Made by a program: the position numbers and the translations under genes
In this document: positions 1 through 9,539 of the stretch, piece after piece
Position numbering within the stretch: the stretch's first letter is position 1
Layout: each line of letters begins with the position of its first letter
The notes under the pieces: generated by a model
Database searches by the model: none
The model's input: the letters and a program-made list of their open reading frames with translations, nothing else
Told to the model about the DNA's origin: nothing
Assembly: GCA_947369085.1 (NCBI GenBank)
Contig: CANBJR010000006.1
Coordinates: 1 to 64,000 of the forward strand
From: an uncultured Clostridia bacterium
GTDB taxonomy: Bacteria; Bacillota; Clostridia; Oscillospirales; Acutalibacteraceae
Direction of reading: 5' to 3'
Length of the DNA stretch: 64,000 nt

Positions 1-35
1 CTTTTGAATTTTTGTGCAGTATTTTGGAATTTTTC

Positions 36-1634
36 TTAAGTTGACGACATTGCCTCGCAGGGATTACTTATTGAAAAGCTTTTGCTTGTTATCTTAATTC
101 TGATTTCATTAATATCGGTTGTATATTTTACGGAATTATCAACAAAGTTTTCTATTACGCATTTTATAAGTTTTTTATCGGCATTTATTTTTACATCGCC
201 ATCGCTTTCAAGCACTATGTCATAAATCATATATTTTTCAATAATTTTCTCTGTGAGATGTGTCAGACTGAAATTTCGAATATTCAAGTTAAAATTTGCA
301 GAATCGAGTTTTGAATAATCAAGCATTTTTGAAACAAGCTCATTCATTGACCTTGTCTGTTCATTTATAACCTCACAATAATGCGTTCGTTTGTCAGTGT
401 TTACATTTTCTTCAAGATTTTCCGAGTATCCGCTGATAATAAAAAGCGGAGTTTTCAACTCGTGCGCCATTGAATTTGTTACTGTTCTCAATCGGTTTTC
501 TTGCTCTATTTGTTTTTTTAATGTTCTCCATGTGATTGCACCGATAATTACACCTGTTATCAAAAATACTGAAAGGATAAATACAAGCATAAAAATCAGC
601 TTATTGAAACAACTTTCTAGTACGTTGAATTTTCGTGCATAATTGCAGATGAAAGATATATTCTCATCAGAATCATATGGTTTAACGGACATTTGTTCCC
701 AGTTTGAGTATATATATGTAAACGGCGCAACATTTAATACTGTATGTACCTCGTATTCTCCGTACATATTAGTCTCATATATTTCTACTGTACCTTCCTT
801 TTGAGTAGAAATATCGTTCCCGTCAACTTTGTAATTATCTGTTACAAAGTCGTAATACTCATCTAACGCAGTACTTGCTTTATATTTTCCAAATACAAAA
901 TCATCATCAATAGCATTTCGGTGCATTTCTGTCTGACAATATAATTCAGCTTTTTTATCTGCAAGCGTAGGTTTTAATTCGTAATGCTTTATAACCTTGT
1001 CTTGTGCATACCAGTCGTTATCCTCGCTTGTCTGAACAATTTCAACACTTTTAGGTTGTAAATAACTTTTATCAATGTAGTATTCGGTACATAAAAGCTC
1101 ATAGTATTTGCCGTCACCGGTGTTTTTTTTCGTAAGATAATCTGAAATTTCGCTATATTGCTTGTCTGTCATAGAGTTTTTGAAGTGTTCAAATTCAATA
1201 CAACCAAAATCGGTAACATAGCTTTTTTCAATTATCTCTATTGAATCGTCATTTTCTGATATTTCGTCACCTGTGTGTTCTATATCACCCTCAAATGCCA
1301 CCGAGACCGCATTACCAGTCTGACAAAGTATCGCTCCGGTATCATTTTCTGTAATCTTAATCTGTTCGTCAACATCAAAATCATCAGAAATGTCCTTGAA
1401 CTTTTTATCGTATTTTCTGTTTAGAAGATAGTTTCCCCAGTTGTTGTTTGTTAAGTTCTGCATATTTACTGTTGCCTGATGAAAAGAGGAAGCAGAATTA
1501 CTTGTAAGTAAATCAAGTTCTGAATAATACGTTGTAACAGCAAACACGGCATACACTATTATACTTAATGCAAGCAAAGATACTGAAATGCTGATAAACA
1601 GTCTGCGTTTTTGTTTAATAAGTTTCTTCTTCAT
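36..1634 (-). CDS. Sensor histidine kinase of a two-component system, C-terminally truncated reading frame
   Basis: Membrane sensor kinase partnered with the response regulator just upstream; the regulator's TGA and this ATG overlap as TGATG, so the two are translationally coupled. Visible parts are a basic N-terminus, membrane segment 1 (about residues 12-35), an extracytoplasmic domain of about 300 residues that I cannot assign to a family, membrane segment 2 (about 345-367), and a HisKA domain with MAHELKTPL (phospho-acceptor His near 391). The start of the ATPase domain follows with the N box NFVDNSVKYT near 496-505. The frame stops at residue 532, before the D/G1, F and G2 boxes that hold ATP. 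The frame past the stop stays open to the window edge (EKFQNTAQKFK), so a nonsense change, an assembly error or a real short kinase are all possible. As read, it should not autophosphorylate. Confidence 0.85.
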   Translation of the reverse strand: MKKKLIKQKRRLFISISVSLLALSIIVYAVFAVTTYYSELDLLTSNSASSFHQATVNMQNLTNNNWGNYLLNRKYDKKFKDISDDFDVDEQIKITENDTGAILCQTGNAVSVAFEGDIEHTGDEISENDDSIEIIEKSYVTDFGCIEFEHFKNSMTDKQYSEISDYLTKKNTGDGKYYELLCTEYYIDKSYLQPKSVEIVQTSEDNDWYAQDKVIKHYELKPTLADKKAELYCQTEMHRNAIDDDFVFGKYKASTALDEYYDFVTDNYKVDGNDISTQKEGTVEIYETNMYGEYEVHTVLNVAPFTYIYSNWEQMSVKPYDSDENISFICNYARKFNVLESCFNKLIFMLVFILSVFLITGVIIGAITWRTLKKQIEQENRLRTVTNSMAHELKTPLFIISGYSENLEENVNTDKRTHYCEVINEQTRSMNELVSKMLDYSKLDSANFNLNIRNFSLTHLTEKIIEKYMIYDIVLESDGDVKINADKKLIKCVIENFVDNSVKYTTDINEIRIKITSKSFSISNPCEAMSST

Positions 1635-2311
1635 CAGTATTCACCTATCCTGTAACCACGCTTAACTACCGTTTTAATCATTTTTGAGTTATCTCCCAGC
1701 GCTTTGCGAAGATTTTTAATGTGAGTGTCAAGCGCACGTTCGTCAACATCGCTGTCATAGCTCCAAGCTGATTTTATCAGAGTATCTCGTGATACGACAC
1801 AGCCTTTATTCTCAAGCAAAGTTTTAAGAATGGAGTATTCCTTTGCCGGAAGATTTATTTCTTTTTCATCTGAAATTACAATCCCGTTGTTTGGGTTGAG
1901 GGAAAGCGTTCCGAATTTCAAAACCGATGAACGCACGAGTCCTTTTGAACGCTTTATAAGAGCATTTACCTTGTTATAGAATACAGGCAGAGAAAAGGGT
2001 TTTACTATATAATCATCACAGCCAAGCGCATAGCCTGTTAAAATATCCTCCTGCGCACATCTTGCAGTTATGAACATAATAGGAACATCACTGAAATGCC
2101 GTACCTCCTTACAGATTTCAAATCCGTCAAGTTGTGGAAGCATAATATCAAGCAAAAGTAAATCATAGGTGCTTTCGTAAGCCATATCTGCACCCTTTTT
2201 TCCGTTATCAGCAACGTCAATTAAAATATTATTTGAACTTTTCTCTATGAAATAATCGCACAGCATTTCGCTTATGTTCTTATCGTCTTCAACAAGAAGT
2301 ATCCTGTACAC
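1634..2311 (-). CDS. OmpR/PhoB-family response regulator
   Basis: DNA-binding response regulator. The receiver domain carries the acidic pair in LLVEDD, the phospho-acceptor Asp in LLLLDIMLPQLDG and the conserved Lys in DYIVKPFS. A winged-helix Trans_reg_C domain follows and ends in KTVVKRGYRIGEY. I place the start at the GTG at 2311 rather than the track's ATG at 2335. AGAGGTGA lies about 5 nt before the GTG, the protein then begins (V)YRILLVEDD as relatives do, and the upstream ATG lies inside a TATGAT -10 element. It is co-transcribed with the kinase and probably controls both itself and the divergent transport operon through paired 11-bp-period repeats. Confidence 0.93.
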   Translation of the reverse strand: MYRILLVEDDKNISEMLCDYFIEKSSNNILIDVADNGKKGADMAYESTYDLLLLDIMLPQLDGFEICKEVRHFSDVPIMFITARCAQEDILTGYALGCDDYIVKPFSLPVFYNKVNALIKRSKGLVRSSVLKFGTLSLNPNNGIVISDEKEINLPAKEYSILKTLLENKGCVVSRDTLIKSAWSYDSDVDERALDTHIKNLRKALGDNSKMIKTVVKRGYRIGEY

Positions 2312-2330
2312 AATCTTCACCTCTGTATAA

Positions 2331-2437
2331 ATCATATTAAATCAATCTGTGTTTTATCTGTAGTTATGATAATATTCTACATTAAATATAAATTTTTTGC
2401 AATTCTACAGATAAACTACAGACACTCGTTTTATAAT
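2331..2437. promoter_or_regulatory. Divergent promoter with two inverted copies of a response-regulator operator
   Basis: On the plus strand, CTACAGATAAACTACAGA (2405-2422) is two CTACAGA half-sites 11 bp apart, followed after 9 bp by TATAAT (2432-2437). On the minus strand, CTACAGATAAAACACAGA (2363-2346) matches it at 16 of 18 positions and is followed after 9 bp by TATGAT (2336-2331). Neither promoter has a good -35 hexamer; the repeat occupies that place. Tandem half-sites one helical turn apart in place of the -35 are typical of activation by OmpR/PhoB-family regulators. That the adjacent regulator binds here is inference. Confidence 0.8.
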
Positions 2438-2453
2438 TTAGGCGGTGATTGAA

Positions 2454-3851
2454 ATGAAAAAAATTTTGTCTTTCATAATATGCGCAGTGATTTTATTTTG
2501 TACAGCCTGCACAAGTTCCGAAAACCCCAACAACATTTCTGAAACTGTAAATAATCTTCCGAGCTATTATTATTCAGCAGAAGGAAGCGGAACAGTATTT
2601 GATATAATAGAGCGGTATAATAAGTACTGTAAAAGAAACGGTGAGTACGATAATCAGATTGAACTTGTAAAGTTTGAAAGCGACAAAATTATGTACGATA
2701 TAATATCAACAGAAATTATGGCGGGAAAAGGCCCTGATATTTTCAGCTTTGATATGCTTTTGCCTTTCGAAAAGCTTATTGGTAACGGTTCATTAGCCGA
2801 TATTAACGAGCTGATAGAAAATGATCCTGCTGAGGATAAATTAAATCTTAACGAATACAATAAAACAATTATGGATGCAGGAGTGTATAACAGCAAGAGG
2901 TATATTATTCCTATTCTTTATAATTTTGATATTATGATTTCAAGTGAAAATATCCTCCATAAATTTGGTGTTAGATATAAGCAGGGAGATTCGCTTACTT
3001 ACAGCACTCTTGGAGAAAAGTTTAAGAACTATTTTTATAGCCCTGACAGTTTCAGTTTTTTGACTTCAGATGCTGCAAGGCACGGAAGAAAATCTATATT
3101 TTACAAATTTTTAAACGAATATGTTGATTTTAAAAATATGACAACGGATTTTGATACCGAAGAATTTACAAACAGCCTTGACGTAATGAGCGAAATTTAC
3201 AGGAATTCAACGGAAGAAAACTATATTATCTTGGATAACGATAAAAAAGATATTGAATGGGGAGAGAGTAAAAATTTAATTTTCGATGCATTATTTTCAG
3301 ATGGCGGCTCGCCGAGAATAATTGAAAGCTTTTACAGAAGTAATTTTAACAACTACATTGAAAAGCCTGTTATTTTTAACGGACTGTCAAGAACAAAAAA
3401 TTCAGGTAAAGCATATATGGAATATGCAGTTGCTATCAACAATAATTCAAAACATAAAGAAACAGCCTTTAAATTTATTAAATATCTCCTGTCAGAGCGA
3501 ACACAGGAATATTATACAGGCATTTTATCAGGGTCTGATTTTGCAGGCTATACTTATGGTATTCCGGTACGTAATGAAGCTTTTGAACTGAATAAAAAAC
3601 TGGGATTAAACGAATGTGATGATTACGGCTACACAATAAAAGTCCACGAGGAATACAGCGATTTCACAAAGGTTTATCTGGAAATGCTTGAAAATATCAA
3701 CAGAGTATCAATTTACCCGAATGGAAATTATTCCTATTATGATATAAATGTGATTCAAAGTTCTGTTAATGATTATCTTGAAGGAAAAATATCTAAAGAA
3801 AAATTTATACGCCAGCTTACTACAGCTACCGATACCTATTTAAAGGAGTAA
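2454..3851 (+). CDS. Extracellular solute-binding lipoprotein (ABC importer), first copy
   Basis: Probable ABC-importer binding protein of the bacterial sugar-binding type. It has a short basic N-terminus, a hydrophobic stretch and a lipobox-like CTAC near residues 18-21, so it should be lipid-anchored outside the membrane. IMAGKGPDIFSFDM and the tail ending near RQLTTATDTYLKE fit the family-1 fold. The track begins at a GTG (2445) that sits in the ribosome site AGGCGGTGA; the ATG at 2454 (MKKILSF) is better. It is the first gene of the operon, 5 bp from a second binding protein that resembles it over the whole N-terminal half. The substrate cannot be told from sequence. Confidence 0.88.
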   Translation: MKKILSFIICAVILFCTACTSSENPNNISETVNNLPSYYYSAEGSGTVFDIIERYNKYCKRNGEYDNQIELVKFESDKIMYDIISTEIMAGKGPDIFSFDMLLPFEKLIGNGSLADINELIENDPAEDKLNLNEYNKTIMDAGVYNSKRYIIPILYNFDIMISSENILHKFGVRYKQGDSLTYSTLGEKFKNYFYSPDSFSFLTSDAARHGRKSIFYKFLNEYVDFKNMTTDFDTEEFTNSLDVMSEIYRNSTEENYIILDNDKKDIEWGESKNLIFDALFSDGGSPRIIESFYRSNFNNYIEKPVIFNGLSRTKNSGKAYMEYAVAINNNSKHKETAFKFIKYLLSERTQEYYTGILSGSDFAGYTYGIPVRNEAFELNKKLGLNECDDYGYTIKVHEEYSDFTKVYLEMLENINRVSIYPNGNYSYYDINVIQSSVNDYLEGKISKEKFIRQLTTATDTYLKE

Positions 3852-3856
3852 CAATT

Positions 3857-5152
3857 ATGATTAAAAAAGTAATAAGTCTAATTTTATGCTTACTGGCATT
3901 GACGGGGTTTTCTGCCTGCAGTGACTCAACAGCCGTAGGTACAAAGAATAAAATTACAACATATACTCTTAAAAACTGGTACTCAATTTCAGAAGGCAAT
4001 AGTATATGGAATTATAACAAACATTGCAAGGACTCAGATAAAATGATAGAAATAGTTGAATTTGAAACTGAAGAGGAATTAAAAAATAAGCTTAGCACCG
4101 AACTTATGAGCGGGAAAGGTCCTGATTTAATTTCTGCTGATTGCTTGTCAGCAGCAGGAATTTCTTATGAAAAGCTCATTGATCAGGGGTGTTTTGTCGA
4201 TATAAACGAAGTAATTAAAGCCGATACATCTCAAGATCAACTAAATCTGTCCGATTACAATGAGAAGGCATTGCAAAGCGGAGTTATAAATGGAAAAAGA
4301 TATTTTATTCCATTTTATTTTATGCCGAATTTTTGTGTAGCTTCACAACAGGAATTAGAAAAATATATAAATGCTGATACAAAGTCTTTGTCATACAATG
4401 ATATTATTAAAATAAACGATAAAATCAATGAAGAGAAAAGCGACAAGGTTATTTCATCAAATGCCGACGGTTATATTTGGTCATATGTTTATGATAATGT
4501 TGATTTTATTAACAAAACTTATAATTTCGACGGAGAATTTTCATCAACAGCCGAAAAATTAAAGGAATTAAAGGGTACGGGGGACAAAATAAAAGAAGAA
4601 CTATTGCAAGAGTTTGTTATTTCACCTTATCAGATATATGAATATTGTGCAGAAATTGAGAAATATGGAGAAACAGCAAGGATAATAGGAAAGCCGTCAA
4701 TTGACACCGACGTATTGAGCGCTCAGATGTGTGGTATTTATTTTATAAATAAAAACTCCGCTAAAAAACAAGATATACTGGAATTTATAAAATATGCATT
4801 GTCTGAAAAAGAACAAAATGATGTTGCGGGCACAGATATTGAAAAATACGATAACACAACAAGTTATTACGATGGTTCATACTTCCCGGTAAATAAGAAA
4901 TCATACAAATCACTTATGAATAATGCTAAAAAGTTAAAATATCTTGATGATACCATAAAAATAAGTAATGAAAGCGTAGAACAGCTTGAAAATATACTTG
5001 CACAAATTTCAGATTTTCAATTTTCGCAAAGTACAAATTATATGACGGAAGTCGGCAGTGAGCTGATAAGCGACTATGTTGACGGAAAAATTAGTATAAG
5101 TATGTTTGTTGAAGATTTGAAAACTAAGACAAAAATCTATATGGAAGAATAA
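3857..5152 (+). CDS. Extracellular solute-binding lipoprotein (ABC importer), second copy
   Basis: Second lipoprotein of the operon, with lipobox-like FSAC near residue 20. It shares with its upstream neighbour the order of a Tyr/Ser-rich start, KLSTELMSGKGPDLIS, DINEVI, LNLSDYNEKALQSGV and NGKRYFIPF, so the pair looks like an old tandem duplication that has diverged strongly in the C-terminal half. The ribosome site AAGGAG overlaps the stop region of the first gene. Two binding proteins feeding one permease pair could widen substrate range, or one could act as a sensor partner of the kinase; both are inference. Confidence 0.85.
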   Translation: MIKKVISLILCLLALTGFSACSDSTAVGTKNKITTYTLKNWYSISEGNSIWNYNKHCKDSDKMIEIVEFETEEELKNKLSTELMSGKGPDLISADCLSAAGISYEKLIDQGCFVDINEVIKADTSQDQLNLSDYNEKALQSGVINGKRYFIPFYFMPNFCVASQQELEKYINADTKSLSYNDIIKINDKINEEKSDKVISSNADGYIWSYVYDNVDFINKTYNFDGEFSSTAEKLKELKGTGDKIKEELLQEFVISPYQIYEYCAEIEKYGETARIIGKPSIDTDVLSAQMCGIYFINKNSAKKQDILEFIKYALSEKEQNDVAGTDIEKYDNTTSYYDGSYFPVNKKSYKSLMNNAKKLKYLDDTIKISNESVEQLENILAQISDFQFSQSTNYMTEVGSELISDYVDGKISISMFVEDLKTKTKIYMEE

Positions 5153-5156
5153 TATT

Positions 5157-6008
5157 ATGACAAGAAAAAGAAAAGACTATCTTACAGCATTTTTGTTTGT
5201 TTTGCCGTCACTTATCGGGATTGCAATTTTTTATGTTGTTCCATACATAATCTGCATTATCAAAAGTTTATACATTGGGCAGGAATTTGTAGGACTGATA
5301 AACTATATTCAGCTTTTCAGTAACAATACATTTATTCTTGCATTAAAGAATACAGTGATATTTACAGTTGTTGCAATACCTTTGCTTATGATTATTTCAT
5401 TTTTGATTGCACTTTTTCTTAACTCATTCAAAAAAATTTTATCATTTTTCAGAAGTGCGTTTCTTATTCCTGTTGTTGTTCCAGTTGCGTCGCTTATCTG
5501 TGTTTGGCAGGTTGTTTTTGATGACTACGGGGCAATCAACGGACTATTAAATACATTAGGTATTGATACCGTGGAGTTTTTCAGCTCTGAATTTTCAATG
5601 GGAATGATAATTTTTATATATGTTTGGAAATACTGCGGATTTTGCGTAATTTTGTTTACTGCGGGTCTTGCTAATGTTCCAAAATCTCTTTATGAAGGTG
5701 CAAAACTTGACGGCGCAAATTCATTTCAGCTTGTAACTAAAGTCACAATACCGATGATTACACCAACTACTTTCTTTGTCTTTCTTATAGAAATAATATA
5801 TTCTTTTAAAATTTTCCGTGAGGTATTTGCTTTGTTTGGCAACTATCCGAATGAACACATTTATTTTTTGCAGAATTTTATAAACAACAATTATTATAAT
5901 CTCAACTATCCGAGATTATCATCCGCCTCTATAATCCTTTCAGTTTTTATAATAATTATTCTGCTTGTTTTCTTTATTTTTGAACGCAAACACAGTTTTT
6001 CGGAATAG
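5157..6008 (+). CDS. Sugar-type ABC transporter permease (MalF/UgpA-like)
   Basis: Inner-membrane permease of the binding-protein-dependent type. The 283 residues are mostly hydrophobic and fit six membrane segments, starting at FLFVLPSLIGIAIFYVVPYI. The cytoplasmic EAA loop that docks on the ATPase is clear: EGAKLDGANSFQLVTKVTIP near residues 180-200. It starts 4 bp after the second binding protein. No ATPase gene lies in the operon, so it presumably shares an MsmX/MsmK-type ATPase encoded elsewhere, as many Firmicute sugar importers do. Confidence 0.93.
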   Translation: MTRKRKDYLTAFLFVLPSLIGIAIFYVVPYIICIIKSLYIGQEFVGLINYIQLFSNNTFILALKNTVIFTVVAIPLLMIISFLIALFLNSFKKILSFFRSAFLIPVVVPVASLICVWQVVFDDYGAINGLLNTLGIDTVEFFSSEFSMGMIIFIYVWKYCGFCVILFTAGLANVPKSLYEGAKLDGANSFQLVTKVTIPMITPTTFFVFLIEIIYSFKIFREVFALFGNYPNEHIYFLQNFINNNYYNLNYPRLSSASIILSVFIIIILLVFFIFERKHSFSE

Positions 6009-6018
6009 AGAGGGTAGT

Positions 6019-6843
6019 ATGAAAAAGATTATAAAATGCATATTCCTGTTACTTGTCACAGCAATATTTCTGTTTCCTGTTGTGTATATGATAGCCTGTT
6101 CCTTTATGTCAAGCTCACAAATAAGCAAAATGCTCGACTTTGCAAACGGAGAATATAAGGATTTAAATATGATTCCGGAAATGTTTACACTTGAGCAGTT
6201 CTATCAGGTGCTTTTCAGACGTCCTGAATATCTGCTGAAATTTTGGAATTCCGTAATCATAACTTTACCTACGGTAATCGGTCAGGTTGTTGTGTCCTCA
6301 TTTGCGGCATTTGCTTTTGCAAAGTTAAAATTCCCGTTTCGGGACAAACTGTTTTTCATTTACATTGTTTTGTTGATTCTGCCATTGCAGGTAACACTTG
6401 TTCCAAATTATATTATTCTGGATAATATGAATTTACTAAATAATTTTCTCGCAATAATATTACCCGGAACATTCTCAACTTTCGGTATTTGTCTGTTAAG
6501 GCAGAGTATTAAATATATTCCTGACTCATCAATTGAGGCAGCAAGGATAGACGGAGCTTCGTATTTCAGAATTTTTACAAGAATTATTATACCGCAGATA
6601 AAAGGAGGCCTCATAACGCTGACATTACTTTGCTTTATTGACAATTGGAATGTGGTTGAACAACCTTTAATTTATTTTGAAGAAAATTCAATGTATCCGC
6701 TTTCAATTACAATGGCAGATATAAGCAATTCAGACTACGGTATTATATTTGCCTGCGGAGTAATGTTTATGATTCCTGCACTTGTTATCTATTTCTACGG
6801 TCACAAAGATATTAACTTATCAATCTATGATATTGAAAAGTGA
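6019..6843 (+). CDS. Sugar-type ABC transporter permease (MalG/UgpE-like)
   Basis: Second half of the permease pair. The EAA loop reads IEAARIDGASYFRIFTRIII, and the hydrophobic pattern fits six segments. The track starts at 5965 inside the previous gene; the ATG at 6019 (MKKIIKC) has AGAGAGGGT about 4 nt ahead and gives the usual length of about 274 residues. Expected to form a heterodimer with the upstream permease. It is followed after 7 bp by a small membrane protein not normally found in sugar-importer operons. Confidence 0.93.
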   Translation: MKKIIKCIFLLLVTAIFLFPVVYMIACSFMSSSQISKMLDFANGEYKDLNMIPEMFTLEQFYQVLFRRPEYLLKFWNSVIITLPTVIGQVVVSSFAAFAFAKLKFPFRDKLFFIYIVLLILPLQVTLVPNYIILDNMNLLNNFLAIILPGTFSTFGICLLRQSIKYIPDSSIEAARIDGASYFRIFTRIIIPQIKGGLITLTLLCFIDNWNVVEQPLIYFEENSMYPLSITMADISNSDYGIIFACGVMFMIPALVIYFYGHKDINLSIYDIEK

Positions 6844-6850
6844 GGTTTTT

Positions 6851-7252
6851 ATGAAACAGGATAAATACAAAAAAATGGCTATGAAATTTGGGGCATTATT
6901 TTTTGTTGTGGTGTTATTTCTTACATATTTTTCAAAGACAATTGATAACTTGCTTTTGCCAAAGGTAAAAGTTTCAGATGTAATTACAGGAAGCCTTTCA
7001 GAATATCCCGACACTATGCACACGCATTATTTATTACCGCTTTCGTCGGTTGTATCAGAAGAAGTATATGTTATATTTACTGATGAAAAGGGAGAAGTAA
7101 CAGTAAATGCAGTATCGGTAAATATCTGCGGCAGTAATGACCTATATTATGAAGTAACGTCAGAGTCTCTTTTTTCGGATATGCAGGTGGTATATAAGAC
7201 ATCAAAAGAAATCTTTGACGGTGACAGGGTATATGTAGAGGAGGGGGAATGA
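6851..7252 (+). CDS. Miniature membrane-fusion (MacA/HlyD-like) adaptor, single membrane anchor
   Basis: 133-residue protein starting at MKQDKYKK (ribosome site TGAGGT; the track start lies inside the permease gene). It has one membrane segment (about residues 12-28) followed by TIDNLLLPKVKV, wording typical of the start of Gram-positive RND/MacA-type adaptor proteins. It then jumps to what resembles their C-terminal membrane-proximal domain: LLPLSSV, a VYVIFTD strand, and the closing FDGDRVYVEEGE. The lipoyl, hairpin and barrel parts between are missing. I read it as a reduced adaptor; that reading rests on motif resemblance only. Its stop overlaps the next start (ATGA), so the two are probably partners. 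Confidence 0.6.
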   Translation: MKQDKYKKMAMKFGALFFVVVLFLTYFSKTIDNLLLPKVKVSDVITGSLSEYPDTMHTHYLLPLSSVVSEEVYVIFTDEKGEVTVNAVSVNICGSNDLYYEVTSESLFSDMQVVYKTSKEIFDGDRVYVEEGE

Positions 7253-8361
7253 TGAAAAGAATTTTGCCAAGTCTAATTCTTTTTATAATTATTATTGTAT
7301 CTTTCTTCTATTTTACGACTAATATAACAAATCAGTTTCCAAACGCAACTCTGATGAATTATAATTTAAAATCTTCCAAAGAACCTCTCACCATAGCCGA
7401 TATGGAAACACTTTTTGAAAGTATTTCAAATAACGGTGTTGCATTTTGCTGCGAGTATAAAGAAGTGAAAATTAAAGAAGAAGCTGTTACCATTGCGCTT
7501 GTAAATGAGAATTTTCTCAATGTTATGAATATAAGTTTAAAAGAAGGTATTTCTGAAAATAATATTACAAACAAGGCTTATTCTGTTGTAATAAGCGATA
7601 AACTCGCATTAAAATTATTTTTTAACAAAAAAGCAGAAAATAAAAAATTAAATATTCTCGGTAAAAATTTTAAAATAACAGATGTGTATAATATAAGTTC
7701 AAGTATTTTTGATGACATTTCAAAAGACGGTAAGGAACGTATTTATATACCGTACACCTGCGTTGATAACTATGAAGATATTAATATTGATTCAATTGCT
7801 TATTTAAATAATTCGCTATCAGCGCCTTTGATAGAGCAAATGAATTTAAGTCAATACAATTCGGTTAATTTTACGGAAAAATGTAAGGTTATCCATACAT
7901 TTGAACATCTGATGTGTTTTTGCTTATTTACAGGTTTCTGCATAATCTCAATAAAAATATGGTACTTACTGTGCAGAAAGTATTTCAGAGAAATTAAAGA
8001 TAATCTAAAAGAAAACTACATTCTTAAATCAATTGCTTCAATACCTACAAAATATTTATTATTGATTCTTGCAGGAATCGGCATACCATTGATTCTTCTG
8101 TGTATATTTTTCTGTTCGGATTTCAGTGTTTACATAGTTTCAAAATATGTGCCGAATGACAATATCTTTGATGTAACGCATTATATAAGCTCAATTATTG
8201 AAAACGCAAATATTTCAAATAGATTCGCACTTACAGGAAATAATTATCTATTTACTTTATATTCAAAAACGTGTTACATCTTAATATCTATTTTTACTTT
8301 GTTTATTATCTCACACTTTATTATAATTTGTAAGGTTTTAAATAAGCTGAAAACTATATAA
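7249..8361 (+). CDS. MacB/FtsX-like ABC-type membrane protein without ATPase
   Basis: 370 residues with four likely membrane segments, near 5-24, 221-242, 268-290 and 342-364, and a large external domain between the first two. This is the layout of MacB/FtsX permeases. The external domain holds a weak match to the MacB periplasmic core, with a VNENFLNVMNISLKEG stretch followed by VVISDKLALKLFFNKKAENK and ILGKNFKITDVY. The ribosome site GAGGAGGGGG lies just before ATGATG, and the start overlaps the adaptor-like gene. The usual cytosolic ATPase partner is absent nearby. Last gene of the operon. Function unknown; transport, mechanotransmission to the kinase and envelope sensing are all possible. 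Confidence 0.6.
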   Translation: MMKRILPSLILFIIIIVSFFYFTTNITNQFPNATLMNYNLKSSKEPLTIADMETLFESISNNGVAFCCEYKEVKIKEEAVTIALVNENFLNVMNISLKEGISENNITNKAYSVVISDKLALKLFFNKKAENKKLNILGKNFKITDVYNISSSIFDDISKDGKERIYIPYTCVDNYEDINIDSIAYLNNSLSAPLIEQMNLSQYNSVNFTEKCKVIHTFEHLMCFCLFTGFCIISIKIWYLLCRKYFREIKDNLKENYILKSIASIPTKYLLLILAGIGIPLILLCIFFCSDFSVYIVSKYVPNDNIFDVTHYISSIIENANISNRFALTGNNYLFTLYSKTCYILISIFTLFIISHFIIICKVLNKLKTI

Positions 8362-8580
8362 AATGAACCAGTAAAAATGCTTTTCTATCTTTTATAATTT
8401 TTTTGAAATATTTGAAATAATTGTAATACTGTTTATTTTTTAATACGTGTACATTTAATTTACGATATATAACGCTTGTGCTAAAAAGACATATTTTAGT
8501 TATATTAGCATTAATTCTCTGCAATAACAGTTAATAATTATCATTATATGTGTATTAATTAATAATATTGCAATAATAAC

Positions 8581-8609
8581 TTGTAATAGCAAAAAATAAA
8601 TGCTATTAT
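8581..8609 (+). promoter_or_regulatory. Putative promoter with embedded inverted repeat upstream of the Cache protein
   Basis: TTGTAA (8581-8586), a 17-bp spacer and TATTAT (8604-8609) form a plausible sigma-A promoter 34 bp before the start codon. An inverted repeat TAATAGCA/TGCTATTA (8584-8591 and 8601-8608) overlaps both hexamers, so a dimeric regulator bound there would block polymerase. The rest of the 281-bp gap from 8362 is AT-rich with no open frame. Confidence 0.45.
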
Positions 8610-8642
8610 TAAATCAAGAAAATTATGAAAGGAATATAGATT

Positions 8643-9539
8643 ATGAACAAATCGAAAACAGTAAATAAAAACATTGCTATAATTGTTGCTGTTGCTATTT
8701 CCATAATAATGGCCGTAACATCAGTAGTATGTACAGTCCTTGGAGCTGACCGTAATACAGACAACAACACATACTTAACTGACGCTAAAGGCGTTGTAAC
8801 CGATTTTGTAAACAACGAAAGCTACAACAATTTCACTTTTATGGACGGCCTTTTTGCAAAAGCAAATATTGTATCTGCCTGCGTGGATGAACATACTAAT
8901 GCTGATGTAATTGCTGAAATTACAAAGAATCTTAGGCTTAATTCTTTTGTAGTAACTGACCCTGATGGCAAAATAATTAGTGCTACTGACGCTGATAAAA
9001 TCGGAACAAACATTCTTGACGATGAAAACACAAATCAGTTTAAAAAAGTATTAAAAGGTATAGCGTATAAAAGCACAAATGAGCCGAAAGCTGTTGAGGG
9101 CGAAAATGGTATTTATAATGTTATGGCTTGCGTAACACGTTCAGCAGGCGGTGTTGTGGTTATAGATATTGACACTAACACTTATGCTTCAGTTACCGGC
9201 AAAGATATTGCTAAAAGTTGCAAAGGCGATACAATCATTGCCAAAGACGGAAAAATTATTAGTTCAAACTTTGATATTGCCGAAGCAACCCAACTTGAAA
9301 ATCTTGGAATTACGGAAGATATGTTGAATGATGATGCGTTTACAATAACAGTTAATGATGTTAATTATTCGCTCAGCGCCGAGAATGTTGATGATTACAC
9401 AGTAATAAGCGGTGCAGTTATGGAAGAAAGCGGATTCGATTATATTTTCGGAGTTGTAATACCTACTGCTGTATGTGCGGTAATGATTCTTTTATCAGTA
9501 ATAATATTTACTGTATCCGGTAAGAAAAAAGAAATCTGA
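8643..9539 (+). CDS. Membrane-anchored Cache (PDC) sensor-domain protein without output domain
   Basis: 298 residues: membrane segment near 10-33, an external domain of about 235 residues, membrane segment near 270-292, and a short basic tail (GKKKEI). The external part reads like a Cache/PDC ligand-binding domain (FVVTDPDGKIISATDADKIG followed by a later FKKVLKG helix), as found in chemoreceptors and sensor kinases. No HAMP, kinase, cyclase or methyl-accepting part follows. The ribosome site is GAAAGGAATATAG. It is a single-gene unit closed by a strong terminator. It may sense a ligand for a separate partner; the ligand is unknown. Confidence 0.65.
   Translation: MNKSKTVNKNIAIIVAVAISIIMAVTSVVCTVLGADRNTDNNTYLTDAKGVVTDFVNNESYNNFTFMDGLFAKANIVSACVDEHTNADVIAEITKNLRLNSFVVTDPDGKIISATDADKIGTNILDDENTNQFKKVLKGIAYKSTNEPKAVEGENGIYNVMACVTRSAGGVVVIDIDTNTYASVTGKDIAKSCKGDTIIAKDGKIISSNFDIAEATQLENLGITEDMLNDDAFTITVNDVNYSLSAENVDDYTVISGAVMEESGFDYIFGVVIPTAVCAVMILLSVIIFTVSGKKKEI

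Follow-up and report, generated by a model that had tools for sequence, protein, structure and literature searches.

Two predicted pho-box-type promoters between divergent two-component and transport operons in a Ruminococcus bromii-like gut bacterium

Is the transport operon that lies beside an uncharacterised two-component system in a gut bacterium controlled by that system, and does the regulator also control its own gene? The question is raised by an intergenic region at the start of contig C6 of an uncultured Clostridia bacterium (G000; 2.18-Mb genome in 98 contigs). "The window" here means the whole 64,000-nucleotide stretch that was analysed. The region carries two similar 18-bp sites in mirror orientation, and a preliminary description had proposed that the adjacent regulator acts through them to switch on itself and the transport operon together. 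Sequence comparison leads us to regard it as probable (roughly 0.85) that positions 2312-2453 hold two independent, regulator-activated promoters of the pho-box type, driving the regulator-kinase operon and the transport operon. The features concerned are as follows.

36-1634, minus strand: sensor histidine kinase whose assembled sequence stops at the contig end, short of the C-terminal ATP-binding part (from domains and gene overlap)
1634-2311, minus strand: OmpR/PhoB-type response regulator, 225 aa, GTG start at 2311 (Response_reg and Trans_reg_C domains, start codons of orthologues; closest solved structure 1kgs, DrrD)
2331-2336 (2336->2331), minus strand: -10 element TATGAT of the regulator-kinase operon
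2346-2363 (2363->2346), minus strand: operator of the regulator-kinase operon, CTACAGA-TAAA-ACACAGA, CTACAGATAAAACACAGA (read directly)
2405-2422, plus strand: operator of the transport operon, CTACAGA-TAAA-CTACAGA, CTACAGATAAACTACAGA (read directly; both half-sites conserved in 14 loci; the sole match without mismatch in the genome)
2432-2437, plus strand: -10 element TATAAT of the transport operon (read directly)
2454-3851, plus strand: lipoprotein solute-binding protein 1 (SBP_bac_1, SBP_bac_8)
3857-5152, plus strand: lipoprotein solute-binding protein 2 (SBP_bac_1)
5157-6008, plus strand: ABC importer permease, MalF/UgpA-like (domain and family profile matches)
6019-6843, plus strand: ABC importer permease, MalG/UgpE-like (domain and family profile matches)
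6851-7252, plus strand: short membrane protein, 133 aa, which looks like a periplasmic adaptor cut short (L146 has a full-length relative of 361 aa)
7249-8361, plus strand: membrane protein with a MacB-like core domain (MacB_PCD) and without an ATPase domain

The anatomy given in the preliminary description was confirmed to the base by direct reading. In inverted orientation the two 18-mers share 16 of their 18 bases, and within each the half-sites start 11 bp apart, with 7/7 identity between half-sites on the plus strand and 5/7 on the minus strand. By chance such an inverted pair, with two mismatches or fewer, arose in 1 of 300 base shuffles of the intergenic region. The distance to TATAAT and to TATGAT is exactly 9 bp, as had been claimed (plus-strand spacer cactcgttt, 2423-2431; minus-strand spacer 2345->2337). 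The lack of a good -35 also held up, with no TTGACA-like hexamer paired with either -10 element (0/52 promoter-like pairs in a scan of positions 1500-9000, where such pairs were only slightly above chance frequency). A TTGCAA-17-TAGAAT pair with a 9/12 match, itself near chance frequency, lies on the minus strand (2402->2374) and points to the regulator gene; it could be an extra basal or weak constitutive promoter for the regulator. The regulator start was placed at GTG 2311, preceded by the Shine-Dalgarno sequence gaggtgaag, and ATG stands at the equivalent position in the ~70 orthologues examined. The listed start, ATG 2335, was rejected because it falls within the -10 element and the orthologues begin at the position of GTG 2311. 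From this start and the positions of the -10 elements, the leaders of both operons are predicted to be very short, ~10-15 nt.

The regulator belongs to the OmpR/PhoB type by its receiver domain (PF00072, E 1.3e-21) and winged-helix Trans_reg_C domain (PF00486, E 5e-24), and it falls below the cut-off for the PhoB equivalog (161.4 bits, E 2e-47, vs 296.2 bits for NCBIfam TIGR02154). Its gene overlaps the kinase gene by one base. The kinase frame stops after SNPCEAMSST (window 1-60, minus strand), while that of its closest relative (G165, L331) runs ~60 residues further and includes a GLGL box; Pfam detected no ATPase domain in the window kinase, which may be incomplete, and an assembly artefact may account for the contig's final 50 bases. 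On the plus strand the transport genes are at most 13 bp apart or overlap, and the scan revealed no terminator-like site between genes. A solute-binding protein together with two BPD_transp_1 permeases is the set expected of a CUT1-type carbohydrate ABC importer; no ATPase gene is present among the eight genes. The 133-aa protein aligns to both ends of an adaptor-looking protein of 361 aa (L146, 5884-6969), the middle being absent in the window. The proposal that the eight genes form one regulon stands in part: gene order and spacing fit it, but the kinase frame breaks at the contig end, and additional targets are possible in some relatives.

Homologues were collected with the solute-binding protein and the regulator as starting queries, which yielded 93 regulator homologues with upstream DNA. 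Searching with the regulator led to relatives in Ruminococcus, among them R. bromii ATCC 27255 and 5AMG; most derive from rumen or hindgut metagenome-assembled genomes. Both operators are present in all 14 loci in which an orthologous regulator and this transporter are divergently arranged (Ruminococcus bromii-like metagenome-assembled genomes), and the distance from operator to -10-like hexamer is exactly 9 bp at 28/28 sites. Inter-operator distances, measured in 13 loci, run from 23 to 64 bp, and the half-sites range across the 14 loci from CTACAGA through CTTCAGA to TCCATA/TCCAGA. The alignment is conserved chiefly in the half-site cores, four in all, and in both -10 elements.

The repeat architecture also emerges when no motif is given. 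For 66 regulators, each with 110 bp of upstream DNA, a pair of near-identical 7-mers offset by 11 bp was seen in 41 of the upstream regions, against 8.8 expected from dinucleotide shuffles, and the enrichment is marked only at 11 (other offsets from 7 to 24: 4-16 seen, 6.5-8.8 expected). A scoring matrix, seeded on 14 sites from seven loci with the weak seed sites placed with the -10 in view, put 48 of 92 regulator promoters above the 99% null; the best-scoring 18-mer was picked blind to the -10, and TA stood at +9 in 48/48 and TANNNT in 43. Among later-fetched loci a scoring operator was found in only 4/26, all four at 9 bp. The -35 positions at the -10 elements of the scored operators are no better than random positions (TTGACA match of 3/6 or less in 43/48), and the best sigma promoter anywhere upstream gave a weak contrast between cases with and without an operator. 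At their own promoters 44 of the 92 homologues have no recognisable site of this kind, so autoregulation does not extend to the whole family.

The sites follow the regulator gene. Transporter operons with the divergent regulator carry them in 14/14 cases, as against 2/12 of those without a neighbouring regulator (L065, and L069 weakly). In a close relative, G165 (regulator identity 95%), the operator on the regulator side is intact and the one on the transporter side has been lost; a MalF search of that genome indicates that the transport operon is absent, and on the far side of the intergenic region stands the gene for glutamate dehydrogenase, located beyond the transport operon in the window. 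This linkage, together with the invariant 9 bp, supports the earlier proposal that the adjacent regulator would switch on both itself and the transport operon.

Two further arrangements were observed among the relatives. G170 (L250, G170:C7:27845-28690) retains both operators and -10 elements, ~780 bp apart, at a locus with broken copies of the regulator and solute-binding genes; a recombinase-like gene adjoins the broken regulator. Elsewhere, permeases ~80% identical to those of the window are preceded by a tandem array of strongly diverged genes for solute-binding proteins, three in L061 (G031, R. bromii ATCC 27255) and four in L062 (G029), with no operator and no adjacent regulator.

Genome-wide, a 33-bp pattern (half-site, N4, half-site, N9, TANNNT) ranked the two window sites as the top two matches, with 0 and 1 mismatches, and the 18-mer was not scattered through the 2.18-Mb genome, as the preliminary description would predict. 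The third-best match belongs to a dispersed repeat, CTACGGATTTARTACAGA; repeats of this kind, with CTACGGATTTARTACARA, occur in G000 contigs C2, C5, C21, C26, C29, C43 and C89 and imitate the operator in pattern searches. A site-like match kept in G000, G121 and G165 (C24, C58 and C56) was set aside since it precedes a terminator-like hairpin. The search of the window's genome gave no convincing third target. Across 161 genomes of the genus, CTACAGAN5TACAGA has 28 exact matches and the reversed pattern none.

Sites of this kind could also serve repression, with the regulator sitting on the -35 region and barring RNA polymerase from both promoters until a signal arrives. They do overlap the core promoter region. 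However, a repressor does not need a constant distance to the -10, whereas here it is 9 bp in 28/28 sites with TA at +9 in 48/48 scored operators, and these -10 elements lack a -35 that would let them work unaided. Because the spacing is invariant, an activator touching sigma is favoured, and repression appears unlikely.

Another regulator might bind the sites instead, for example a paralogous OmpR-type regulator in the same genome (G000:C35:2387-3049). It is 64% identical, and a related operator, TTTCAGATTCACAACAGA, lies at the promoter of its gene (G000:C35:3068-3100, 2 mismatches to the 33-bp pattern), so cross-binding is possible. The occurrence of the sites with the adjacent regulator gene speaks against this, as does the fact that the half-site letters differ between regulator clades, and we consider control by another regulator improbable.

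The mirror symmetry itself invites the idea that the 18-mers, 16/18 identical and inverted, form one element, a cruciform, hairpin or symmetric binding complex, in place of two promoters. This is very improbable, and a single mirror structure was rejected, given that the gap varies among the 13 loci while each site stays 9 bp from its own -10, and that G165 keeps one arm intact and has lost the other. An RNA element or riboswitch was likewise rejected, as no Rfam family reached threshold and the best match was far under it. Chance resemblance, for which one could cite the abundance of CTACAGA-like 18-mers with 3 mismatches in this AT-rich genome, is already refuted at the present level of evidence by the 11-bp peak, the 28 exact matches against none reversed, and the focus of conservation on half-sites and -10 elements.

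We return to two regulator-activated promoters. A member of this regulator family, a 7-4-7 direct repeat, a fixed short distance to the -10 and a missing canonical -35 together make up the anatomy of a PhoB-type activator promoter. What we infer of phosphorylation, binding, activation, transcript starts and signal runs as follows. The phosphorylated regulator would bind each tandem CTACAGA pair head to tail, at about -39 to -22 relative to the predicted start, where it would substitute for the absent -35 and recruit RNA polymerase to the -10 located 9 bp downstream. The minus-strand site would drive regulator and kinase, giving positive autoregulation, and the plus-strand site the six-gene transport operon. 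The signal may be the substrate, perhaps presented by the lipoproteins. Recurrence in 14/14 loci strongly suggests that the regulator turns on itself and the transporter by a mechanism known from other bacteria.

The PhoB promoters phoA and pstS have 10 bp to the -10, whereas there are 9 bp here. In the pho box, an 18-nt operator, 4 nt separate two direct repeats of 7 nt each (PMC4415409), and PhoB promoters have no canonical -35, PhoB recruiting sigma region 4 (PMC4496699). The window operators resemble this system (E. coli, sigma-70) in the 7-4-7 direct repeat, the lack of a -35 and the regulator family, and they differ in half-site (CTACAGA vs CTGTCAT in the pho box), in the lack of phosphate genes here, and in a local set of two promoters in place of a global regulon. 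CiaR of streptococci is an activator that uses the direct repeat NTTAAG-N5-TTTAAG, 10 nt from the -10 (PMC3091779). It shares the tandem repeat, the 11-bp period and the fixed distance before the -10, whereas its half-site and recognition helix differ (VVEVYVSKVRKKL in CiaR, RALDTHIKNLRKAL in the window regulator) and it controls small RNAs and other genes. PmrA of Klebsiella shows an OmpR/PhoB-type dimer binding two half-sites head-to-tail (PMC3973317); the PmrA box likewise offers two half-sites to a regulator of this type, but these are CTTAAT and CCTAAG with 5 bp between them. The mechanism is therefore of a known kind and the half-site is new. No work on the motif or on this regulator-transporter system was found in the searched literature, and as far as that literature shows the instance is previously undescribed.

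At the paralogous regulator-kinase pair (L185), each side of the divergent region carries an operator-like site (G000:C35:3068-3100, minus strand, and 3144-3176, plus strand), and the pair faces a lipoprotein-ABC transporter operon. When a regulator has V or I at the position equivalent to PhoB Arg219, its second half-site has G as the sixth base in 32/36 cases; with R at that position, the base is other than G in 10/12. The association between half-site and regulator residue (by mutual information) is confounded by clade and descent and serves as a lead only. It is possible, though tentative, that in this OmpR-type paralogue family of Ruminococcus bromii-like bacteria the half-sites (CTACAGA, CTTCAGA, CTCCATA/CTCCACA and CTCCAGA) co-change with DNA-contacting residues, notably at the Arg219 position, as a specificity code separating parallel systems, and that the target set has widened in some species, for example to an acyl-carrier-protein/decarboxylase operon in G188 and G196.

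In those two genomes a perfect operator and -10 stand before the acyl-carrier-protein/PLP-decarboxylase operon (L243, G188:C69:4195; L244, G196:C26:7925); conservation between them covers the operator and does not extend to the sequence immediately upstream. As a core target the operon was rejected, with the site in 2/28 operons examined (G188 and G196) and absent in G000. It is a possible extra target, at best lineage-specific, and secreted dockerin-like proteins recognised by eye in G018, G041 and G179 are further possible candidates.

The analysis predicts which operator, promoters and target genes go with an uncharacterised two-component system of Ruminococcus bromii-like gut bacteria. The 18-mer with its 9 bp and -10 element can be used at once for target prediction across the regulator family, and the ~50 operator-regulator pairs with varied half-sites constitute a natural data set on how DNA specificity is separated among OmpR-type paralogues.
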